This document shows, in pieces, positions 11,878 to 62,883 of a stretch of DNA of 64,000 nucleotides. Below the pieces are notes generated by a model, which saw only the letters and a list, made by a program, of their open reading frames with translations, was not told the DNA's origin and searched no databases. Positions within the stretch are counted from its first letter, which is position 1. Each line of letters starts with the position of its first letter. The position numbers and the translations under genes are program-made. Origin of the DNA: Bradyrhizobium sp. CCBAU 53340 (lineage in GTDB: Bacteria; Pseudomonadota; Alphaproteobacteria; Rhizobiales; Xanthobacteraceae); contig NZ_CP030055.1 in the NCBI RefSeq assembly GCF_015291645.1, positions 620,001 to 684,000 of the forward strand, written 5' to 3'.

Positions 11878-11979
11878 TGTCATCGCCCGCGAAGGCGGGC
11901 GATCCAGTATTCCAGAGACGTTGATTGTCGACCGAGAAGCTGAGGCGTACTGGATGCCCCGCCTTCGCGCGGCATGACA
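11878..11979. repeat. Palindromic intergenic repeat (about 100 bp, complementary ends)
   Basis: The ends are inverted copies. The left part runs TGTCATCGCCCGCG and leads to GATCCAGTA; the right part runs TACTGGATG to GGCATGACA. Each end has its own GC-rich hairpin around GCGAAGGCG or CGCCTTCG. It sits between convergent genes (aminotransferase and methyltransferase), where it may also end transcription. The form matches intergenic repeats common in Bradyrhizobium. Confidence 0.75.
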
Positions 11980-28071: not shown

Positions 28072-28101
28072 TGTCGTCCCTGCGAACGCAGGGACCCATA
28101 A
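28072..28101 (+). repeat. Left 30-bp inverted repeat bracketing the GIY-YIG gene
   Basis: This 30-base segment contains the hairpin GTCCCTGCG-AA-CGCAGGGAC and ends CCATAA. It is the exact reverse complement of 28550-28579. The same arm type with GGC in place of TGC bounds the gene-less element at 40921-41065. Confidence 0.9.
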
Positions 28102-28140
28102 CCACAGGCCCTGGTTGCTAGCTGAGACAGGGGCCCGAGC

Positions 28141-28422
28141 ATGTACTACGTCTACATCCTCGCCAGCCGCCATCACGGAACGCTCTATATCGGCGTCACT
28201 AACTCGCTGCAGAAGCGGCTGGACCAGCACCGCGCCGGCAAAGGCTCGGAGTTCGTCAAGCGATACGGAGTATATCGGCTCGTCTACGCCGAATCCTTCG
28301 AGCGGGCGGAAGAGGCGATTGCCTGCGAAAAGCAGCTCAAACGCTGGAAGCGCGATTGGAAGATCGAGTTGATCGAGCGTGACAATCCGGAATGGCGCGA
28401 TTTGAGCGATCTGCTGGTTTGA
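28141..28422 (+). CDS. GIY-YIG endonuclease-family protein inside an inverted-repeat unit
   Basis: A 93-residue single-domain GIY-YIG protein: YYVYILAS and TLYIGVT form the GIY..YIG strand pair, R31-region QKRLDQH supplies the arginine, and AIACEKQLKRWKR the glutamate expected in the active site. No separate DNA-binding domain is present. Such UPF0213/YhbQ-like proteins are widespread and mostly uncharacterised. Its position inside perfect 30-bp inverted repeats (28072-28101 and 28550-28579) and next to a third copy (28448 onward) suggests it travels with, or acts on, those repeats. That link is inference. Confidence 0.88.
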   Translation: MYYVYILASRHHGTLYIGVTNSLQKRLDQHRAGKGSEFVKRYGVYRLVYAESFERAEEAIACEKQLKRWKRDWKIELIERDNPEWRDLSDLLV

Positions 28423-28445
28423 CTCCCTGGCGCTGCCAAGCAAAC

Positions 28446-28581
28446 GCTGTCGTCCCTGCGAACGCAGGGACCATACCGCGGAATCTATCGGGTGGACGGA
28501 AGGTGTTTGATGCGTGGGTTGGCCGCCTTCGCAAAACTGCTCCCTGGGATTATGGGTCCCTGCGTTCGCAGGGACGACAGC
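28446..28581. repeat. Composite palindromic repeat, family A, copy 2
   Basis: The ends are inverted copies: GCTGTCG-GTCCCTGCG-type hairpin at 28452-28471 and its mirror at 28556-28575, ending CGACAGC. The spacer begins CATACCGCGG and contains TCTATCGG, like copies at 40921 and 62746. The left arm lacks one C compared with the right. The right arm doubles as the right end of the GIY-YIG unit. Confidence 0.85.
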
Positions 28582-29600: not shown

Positions 29601-29690
29601 CGTCATGCCCGGGCTTGTCCCGGGCATCCACGTTCTTCGTTGTCACAGGAAGGAAAGGCGTGGATGGCCGGGACAAGCCCGGCCATGACG
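29601..29690. repeat. Palindromic repeat, family C
   Basis: CGTCATGCCCGGGCTTGTCC opens the left arm (29601-29632) and the right arm (29659-29690) is its near-perfect inverted copy ending GGCCATGACG. Each arm also folds on itself (CCGGGC-TTGT-CCCGG type). It lies between convergent genes and could act as a transcription stop. Confidence 0.8.
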
Positions 29691-40874: not shown

Positions 40875-40891
40875 GGCTTGGATGAGTTTTT

Positions 40892-40912
40892 GAGGCGCGA
40901 CGTTGGCGCCTC
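40892..40912 (+). terminator. Candidate secA terminator
   Basis: GAGGCGC and GCGCCTC form a 7-bp stem with a 7-base loop, 18 bases after the secA stop. It is preceded by a T-run (GTTTTT) but not followed by one, so the T-run could instead serve the minus strand. Confidence 0.45.
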
Positions 40913-40920
40913 ATTCTCCC

Positions 40921-41065
40921 CTGTCGTCCCGGCGAACGCCGGGACCCATACCGCGTGGTCTATCGATGGCGCGCAGTCGTCGTATCGCGTGAGACACCGC
41001 AACTACTAATCTTCGAAACAATCACACCCTGTGGTTATGGGTCCCGGCGTTCGCCGGGACGACAG
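40921..41065. repeat. Composite palindromic repeat, family A, copy 3 (perfect 30-bp ends)
   Basis: Bases 40921-40950 and 41036-41065 are exact reverse complements, each containing GTCCCGGCG and CGCCGGGAC separated by AA or TT. The 85-base spacer begins CCGCGTGGTCTATCG and ends CACCCTGTGG. The end sequence matches the arms around the GIY-YIG gene apart from two symmetric base pairs in the hairpin. It contains no gene. Confidence 0.9.
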
Positions 41066-41102
41066 TCTTTGTTGAGCTGCATCGCGAGCCTTGCGATACG
41101 CG

Positions 41103-62745: not shown

Positions 62746-62883
62746 TGTCGTCACGGCCTTGTGCGCAATTGCGCACTGGAGCCGGGACCCATACCGCGAG
62801 GTCTCTCGATGAAGCGACGCTGATAGTTTTCCCTGACGCACCAACCGTCGGTGGCTATGGGTCCCGGCCTTCGCCGGGACGAC
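62746..62883. repeat. Composite palindromic repeat, family A, copy 5, between cobS and cobT
   Basis: Left end TGTCGTCACGG with a GTGCGCAATTGCGCAC palindrome and GGGACCCATACCGCGAGG; right end CTATGGGTCCCGG to GGGACGAC. The spacer start (CATACCGCGAGGTCTCTCG) matches copies 2 and 3. It separates two genes of one enzyme. Confidence 0.85.

Follow-up and report, generated by a model that had tools for sequence, protein, structure and literature searches.

A small gene for a putative GIY-YIG endonuclease in Bradyrhizobium sp. CCBAU 53340 lies between inverted copies of a CGTC-tagged REP. Related genes are bracketed by such repeats in many genera, an association that goes far beyond chance and of which we have next to no doubt. 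We propose that the unit is a REP-enzyme element, in which CGTC REPs have a small GIY-YIG endonuclease as their dedicated partner, and consider this the probable explanation of the data. The gene was found in a stretch of 64,000 nucleotides (contig NZ_CP030055.1, positions 620,001 to 684,000), here called the window, to which coordinates refer unless a locus or genome is named.

Organization of the unit in the window

A preliminary description of this DNA had reported perfect inverted repeats, each itself a hairpin, around a 93-residue GIY-YIG gene, together with a gene-less copy elsewhere in the window; all of this was borne out. By alignment, 28072–28101 and 28550–28579 are exact reverse complements of 30 bases, and the pairing widens to 37 nt at 95% (28072–28108/28543–28579). 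Each arm is a hairpin, GTCCCTGC-GAAC-GCAGGGAC, with TGTC as outer tag and CCA as inner tail. The ORF between the arms matches Pfam GIY-YIG with an E-value of 3.3e-18, and the 30 nt ends of the gene-less pair are 100% complementary (Table 1). A third copy of the arm, overlooked in the preliminary description, lies in + orientation downstream of the gene, which gives the arrangement REP(+) – gene – [REP(+) ... REP(−)]. The right-hand pair (28446–28581) is an ordinary complete REP dimer that resembles the gene-less dimer at 40921–41065, and a single REP stands upstream of the gene. The unit is flanked by a methyltransferase gene, which we take to be ubiG, and an EamA-family gene; the gene-less dimer sits between secA and a MarR-family gene. 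Searching the window for known non-coding RNAs gave no Rfam match at gathering scores.

Table 1. REPs and the GIY-YIG gene in the window.
Feature	Position	Strand	Remarks
Upstream CGTC-type REP	28072–28108	+	Left arm of the gene-bearing unit, extended on the inner side
Sub-parts of the upstream REP	28072–28075 (tag); 28076–28095 (hairpin)	+	Followed by tail CCA
GIY-YIG nuclease gene	28141–28422	+	93 aa
Third REP copy	28446–28472	+	Left half of the downstream dimer; tail short by one base
Downstream inverted REP	28543–28579	−	Right arm of the unit and right half of dimer 28446–28581
Left REP of gene-less dimer	40921–40950	+	Like design; secA/MarR-family interval
Right REP of gene-less dimer	41036–41065	−	secA/MarR-family interval
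Gene-less dimer, other CGTC subtype	29602–29689		ATGCCCGG stem, gcttgtc loop; past the EamA-family gene
Gene-less pair, further CGTC-like subtype	11879–11978		Stems ATCGCCCG and ATGCCGCG/CGGGGCAT
Lone CGTC-type REP	62858–62883	−	

In the excerpts of Di Nocera (2013; PMC3733652) available, CGTC REPs are defined by a CGTC or TGTC tag, a stem of 8–9 bp, a loop of 4–5 nt, a CCA tail and their occurrence as inverted dimers. They are described there as commonest in alphaproteobacteria, with Bradyrhizobium among the reported hosts, and as present also in Neisseria and Rickettsia; the class includes neisserial dRS3 and the R. conorii elements RPE-4 and RPE-6. The same excerpts state that these repeats “apparently lack a dedicated transposase” and propose other transposases as their movers. 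The window arms fit this class. Both have the tag (as TGTC), and the hairpin GTCCCTGC-gaac-GCAGGGAC-cca has a stem of 8 bp, a loop of 4 nt and the CCA tail; in the host genome the repeat is multi-copy and mostly arranged in inverted dimers. They differ in having a GIY-YIG gene between them, where the available text of PMC3733652 gives no dedicated enzyme, and in a stem that starts GT/AC instead of the AT found “almost invariably” at its first and second bases. The latter difference is not decisive, since the same source permits exceptions, and many arms in other clades begin with AT.

The REP core occurs 92 times with at most one mismatch in the 8.7 Mb host genome and the reversed pattern not once; the core is therefore more than a chance sequence. 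Counted from the listed positions of these 92 copies, 29 inverted pairs are spaced 97–118 nt start to start, the right-hand pair of the window among them. One wider inverted pair within 2 kb was found in the host genome, and it holds the GIY-YIG gene.

The GIY-YIG protein

The 93-residue protein matched GIY-YIG and T5orf172 in Pfam and nothing else there, and no NCBIfam family above cut-off. Residues Y5, Y16, G18, R26, H30, E63 and N82 are conserved in the family: across 88 family loci Y5 is present in 87 and Y16, R26, E63 and N82 in all 88. The core catalytic residues of GIY-YIG enzymes are Tyr, Arg, Glu and Asn, and judged by these residues the active site of the family is intact. Among solved structures, the branched-DNA nuclease Slx1 and the UPF0213 proteins 1zg2 and 1ywl are some of the closest in fold, and the protein shares the UPF0213 fold; I-TevI is a further structural match. 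For the gene beside the methyltransferase, the one examined for selection, a dN/dS of about 0.062 (13 orthologs; 61 of 78 pairs kept, dS 0.05–2) indicates purifying selection; one of the 13, L140, has an internal stop. Since its conservation (dN/dS 0.06) resembles that of a host gene, the gene at this site may be domesticated.

Of the three GIY-YIG matches in the host genome, one lies in a 690-codon frame that was taken as uvrC. The other small gene (L031:1501–1716, genome position 113663) belongs to another subfamily (EYIGATEDLKRRIPEHNAG), and the region upstream of it seems to hold other palindromic repeats. No CGTC pair was detected at this second gene or at the uvrC-like gene (L033).

GIY-YIG genes are bracketed by REPs in many genera

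Of 149 genomes from the same taxonomic family, 116 had homologs with E ≤ 1e-6, up to 12 in a single genome. Bracketing was scored by aligning the 250 nt 5′ of a gene to the reverse complement of the 250 nt 3′ of it, with 18 as the lowest accepted score; flanks were 250 nt in the family, ORF-control, phylum and named-genome sets and 300 nt in the small-GIY-YIG, second-subfamily and plasmid-collection sets. By this measure 73 of 88 family loci were bracketed, compared with none of 580 control intervals of equal length placed elsewhere in the same stretches. The family set comprised 30 loci and 60 more by rank, from at least about 160 matches listed; two of the 90 were too short to score, and seven within the rank range had been passed over (three at a contig edge, four for no recorded reason). 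Control ORFs were bracketed once in 272 cases; short ORFs (0/125) and ORFs with intergenic flanks (0/59) never were.

Bracketing was also seen at 20 of 30 loci in the phylum set (the best 30) and at 63 of 78 in the named-genome set (the best 80 of 589, two lying too near a contig end), with joint controls at 0/355. Eleven of these 108 loci, six and five respectively, repeat the family set, and their exclusion leaves 14/24 and 59/73. The unbracketed loci at this threshold number 15/88, 10/30 and 15/78 in the family, phylum and named-genome sets; L047 stops at a contig edge. Homologs in the named genomes, bracketed in part, come from Bradyrhizobium, Bosea, Parvibaculum, Roseibium, Sphingomonas, Sphingobium, Caulobacter, Methylobacterium and Kaistia. 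Others occur in metagenome bins that carry the names of other phyla and may be mis-binned. A plasmid collection held 37 matching records, and seven of eight chosen ones were bracketed within 300 nt, S. meliloti exactly at the score of 18; the Photobacterium gene was not bracketed. One of the seven bracketed records, of chromosome size and filed as a plasmid, is from Neisseria gonorrhoeae and contains a family member (L365:1501–1755) amid dRS3-like repeats; Azospirillum lipoferum is another of the seven.

The units are compact, with medians over the 73 bracketed loci of 24 nt from arm to start codon, 10 nt from stop to arm and 423 bp in total. When the upstream flank of one locus was paired with the downstream flank of another, 9.7% of pairs still scored at least 18, because arm types are common to several loci. 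A detector restricted to a stem of 8 and loops of 3–5 saw the repeats mainly in the close subfamily; wider loops and the arm-agnostic local alignment of the flanks revealed the remainder. Enrichment of GIY-YIG genes between arms had been set beforehand as a test in the preliminary description, which had also raised the doubt that the nuclease is a chance neighbour. The family and named-genome sets pass the test, and together with the interval, ORF and joint controls they dispose of the doubt.

We also scored a set of 30 small GIY-YIG loci, whose subfamily labels were given by eye and one of which (L322) was clipped and left unscored. Beyond two bracketed subfamilies, none of 17 genes in this set was bracketed (15 YhbQ-like genes, L317 and L326), L317, with a score of 15.5, being countable either way. 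L314 and L315 (9.0 and 12.0) fall in neither group, and L316 and L337 are one broken family member (23.5). The second bracketed subfamily (YILRCADGSYYVG-like) scored at least 18 at six of eight loci here and at 13 of 20 in a set of its own, the two sets sharing L345 and L362; controls were 0/28, few and all upstream. Its palindrome is mostly of the CATCCTGAG...CGAAGGATG kind, which has neither GTC tag nor CCA tail, and at L350, L353 and L360 this kind of repeat is present below the threshold. Members of the second subfamily are L318, L319, L323, L327, L330, L339 and most of L344–L364, with the match at about position 1501 in each unclipped locus. Since this subfamily is bracketed mostly by another palindrome, the pairing of small GIY-YIG genes with palindromes seems to extend beyond CGTC REPs.

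Arm type and REP number follow the enzyme

A tag of the form GTC[AGC][TC] was present in 65 of 73 upstream arms and absent from eight; among 1460 random segments its frequency was 30%. Stems and loops vary by clade, with GTCCCNGC-type, ATCGCCCGG-type, ATTCCGGGGC-type and other arms. Over 2606 locus pairs, all from different genomes, arm similarity correlated with protein identity (Mantel rho 0.267, compared with at most 0.132 in 2000 permutations). Genes within one genome gave 22 further pairs. All 12 below 57% identity had unlike arms (similarity ≤ 0.42), and the arms were similar in eight of the ten pairs at or above 57% and dissimilar in two. Arm type therefore follows protein clade.

REP numbers also follow the gene. 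With genomes counted as independent, the median number of exact REP-pattern copies among the 149 family genomes was 52 in the 14 that carry the close subfamily (E ≤ 1e-35) and 0 in the 135 others; counted in the same way, at least 25 copies were found in 12/14 and 7/135. Across 398 phylum genomes, again treated as independent and with matches weaker than 1e-20 scored as gene-absent, the CGTC-1 pattern reached at least three copies in 45 of 99 gene-positive and 23 of 299 other genomes. The REP-rich family genomes without a close homolog are G129 (143 copies), G112 (86), G106 (44), G064 (41), G087 (40), G025 (35) and G033 (33); in G129 there was no GIY-YIG family match at 1e-6. Eleven gene-negative phylum genomes have ten or more copies, namely G261 (154), G386 (110; assembly 75% complete), G545 (55), G277 (47) and seven with 10 to 29. 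Loss of the enzyme, an incomplete assembly or another enzyme are possible reasons for genomes with 47 to 154 copies in which no close GIY-YIG gene was detected. RAYT/IS200 genes were considered as the driver of CGTC REPs and rejected: Y1/RAYT-type genes, present in 36 of 149 genomes, occurred in 6/19 REP-rich and 30/130 other genomes (p 0.40), which is no correlation.

Occupied, gene-less and collapsed sites

Comparison of empty orthologous sites, which the preliminary description had suggested, yielded occupied, gene-less, collapsed and empty alleles of a single site. In a search of 80 genomes the gene beside the methyltransferase was present at 17 of 30 loci and absent from 13. The gene-less alleles comprise a plain REP dimer (L141, L145, L146), a dimer of another subtype (L144), a palindrome fused head-on (L142), remnants (L143, L147, L148, L149, L152) and sites with no REP (L150, L151, L153). 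The simplest occupied allele, REP – gene – REP, is that of L139; at L154 the gene adjoins the methyltransferase in the opposite orientation. Twenty further copies from the genus (L154–L173) are flanked by CGTC REPs to the left and right; the detector found these in 18, and inspection by eye in L171 and L172. Their flanks, judged by eye, place these related copies at several distinct sites.

Two cases come from other genera. In Azospirillum lipoferum 4B the gene lies between sufB and sufC, with a complete REP dimer both before and after it (L367:1489–1782); this insertion is absent from A. ramasamyi, A. oryzae and sp. B510, where the flanks are about 96% identical. A Sphingobium plasmid site is occupied in TomMM15, TomMM7A and TomTYG46. 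In TomTYG64 a single perfect palindrome stands at this site, with a left half resembling that of the left REP and a right half resembling that of the right REP, as though the two had been joined; TomTYG74 has a slightly changed version of it, and TomTYG72 and TomTYG65 have other sequences. L142 and L378 are single, collapsed or fused palindromes where relatives carry two REPs and the gene. These are possible footprints of excision or slippage: either the action of the enzyme or slippage between short direct repeats could produce such a collapse.

The secA–MarR site (window 40875–41102; L284–L313) carries REP dimers of two or more CGTC types in different genomes of the genus, as though repeats had landed there more than once behind a terminator-like hairpin. 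This sample comprised 30 loci, of which six without anchor and five with intervals longer than 700 nt fell outside the set judged by eye. At the methyltransferase, secA–MarR, sufB–sufC and Sphingobium plasmid sites, where flanks are too diverged or too rich in REPs, no target-site duplication was established and no exact insertion junction was resolved.

Discussion

The preliminary description had suggested a unit of nuclease and palindromes laid out like RAYT/REP systems and built on a different enzyme family, and the bracketing tests support this suggestion; what the enzyme does is our inference. We lean towards the view that action of the nuclease on REPs drives their spread. In such a scheme the full unit would be REP – gene – REP, and the gene-less REP dimers would be its dispersed, non-autonomous form. 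The nuclease may recognize the REP as a hairpin or cruciform, as the presence of Slx1 among the nearest folds suggests, and may nick or cut near the base of the REP. The cut ends would then be copied or lost through host replication or repair, with the outcome that REP dimers spread in trans and the gene in cis, as is thought for RAYTs and REPINs. Binding, cutting and mobilization by the GIY-YIG protein are thus presumed steps. GIY-YIG enzymes hydrolyse DNA and are not known to form a covalent intermediate, and for that reason a RAYT-like strand transfer is not an obvious route; we know of no strand-transfer activity in a GIY-YIG enzyme of this kind.

Some of the data would also suit a homing nuclease that targets REPs, a selfish rider that cuts existing REPs and homes into REP dimers when repair uses the REP arms; the spread of REPs would then follow another route. 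GIY-YIG is a known homing-nuclease fold, with I-TevI among the structural matches, and REP-rich genomes without the close gene exist. At the methyltransferase site, moreover, some relatives have a REP dimer only and others REP – gene – dimer, alleles that look as if a REP with the gene had entered the left REP. However, a late rider alone would not cause arm type to track protein clade or REP numbers to track the gene, and the allele in L139 is a simple REP – gene – REP unit; we regard this explanation as unlikely. Free-standing GIY-YIG homing endonucleases do exist, and the likeness lies in a GIY-YIG catalytic domain within a selfish-looking unit. The present unit differs from them in its terminal palindromes and unrelated sites, and no intron or separate DNA-binding domain was seen in it.

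Purifying selection (dN/dS 0.062), the Slx1-like fold and the collapsed or fused REP remnants at the same sites (L142, L378) would be expected of an enzyme useful to the host, one that trims or resolves REP hairpins or cruciforms during replication and whose gene is kept near its targets because REPs regulate its expression. A 3 Mb genome with as many as 12 copies, and presence or absence among close relatives, look like the marks of a mobile element instead, which makes a host function of this sort improbable. It is harder still to believe that the small genes are bracketed by accident and that RAYT/IS200-type enzymes mobilize CGTC REPs in trans. Mobilization by other transposases was suggested in the available text of Di Nocera (2013; PMC3733652), but REP richness does not correlate with Y1 transposase genes, and neither control ORFs with intergenic flanks nor the other small GIY-YIG genes were bracketed. 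The family and named-genome counts with their controls already contradict this reading.

The REP-enzyme element that we favour can be set beside several known systems. It shares with RAYTs and REPINs a single small nuclease gene flanked by short palindromic REPs of a kind that is dispersed through the genome, gene-less inverted REP dimers at other places, and an enzyme lineage matched to the REP type (for the RAYT side, in part, the available text of PMC3733652). RAYTs are HUH/Y1 tyrosine transposases with GTAG REPs; the enzyme here is a GIY-YIG protein and the tag CGTC, and so the unit is not a member of the RAYT/REPtron group. UPF0213/YhbQ-like proteins have the fold and size of the family protein (1zg2, 1ywl), but the 17 small GIY-YIG genes examined outside the two bracketed subfamilies, 15 of them YhbQ-like, are unbracketed. 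The Tsy transposon is another bacterial mobile element with a GIY-YIG nuclease gene, moved, unlike our unit, by a tyrosine recombinase; as far as the accessible part of PMC10293859 goes, loss of the nuclease impaired transposition, yet the authors call it non-essential. Br-REP1 and Br-REP2 are described as 3′-UTR repeats of B. japonicum in the portion of PMC5082802 at hand, in which the word “endonuclease” is absent; by eye, the Bradyrhizobium consensus of Br-REP2 resembles the ATTCCGGGGC-type arms of the L179 clade. An earlier link between GIY-YIG proteins and REPs was not found in the available text of open-licence papers, preprints being outside the scope, and the word GIY is absent from the accessible parts of the later REP papers PMC12306157 and PMC6006769. 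There is a fair chance that REPs with a GIY-YIG gene are a separate class of mobile element. More tentatively, and we would sooner doubt than assert it, small GIY-YIG nucleases might be the missing enzymes of whole palindrome superfamilies (CGTC REPs including dRS3, and the CATCCTGAG...CGAAGGATG kind), which would jointly form a minimal, transposase-free class of mobile elements (REP – GIY-YIG – REP together with gene-less dimers) that spreads by structure-specific cutting of hairpins or cruciforms and host repair.

Because it sits between CGTC REPs in many bacteria, the GIY-YIG gene is a strong candidate for the missing enzyme partner of these repeats, and its place between cognate REPs puts a name to an enzyme candidate for a widespread repeat class. 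The cognate pairs are ready-made sets of enzyme and substrate from many lineages, with which the origin of the repeats can be tested in vitro and in soil bacteria. The proposed reading would explain what a large group of small GIY-YIG proteins does and would provide a second, unrelated solution to the RAYT/REPIN layout.
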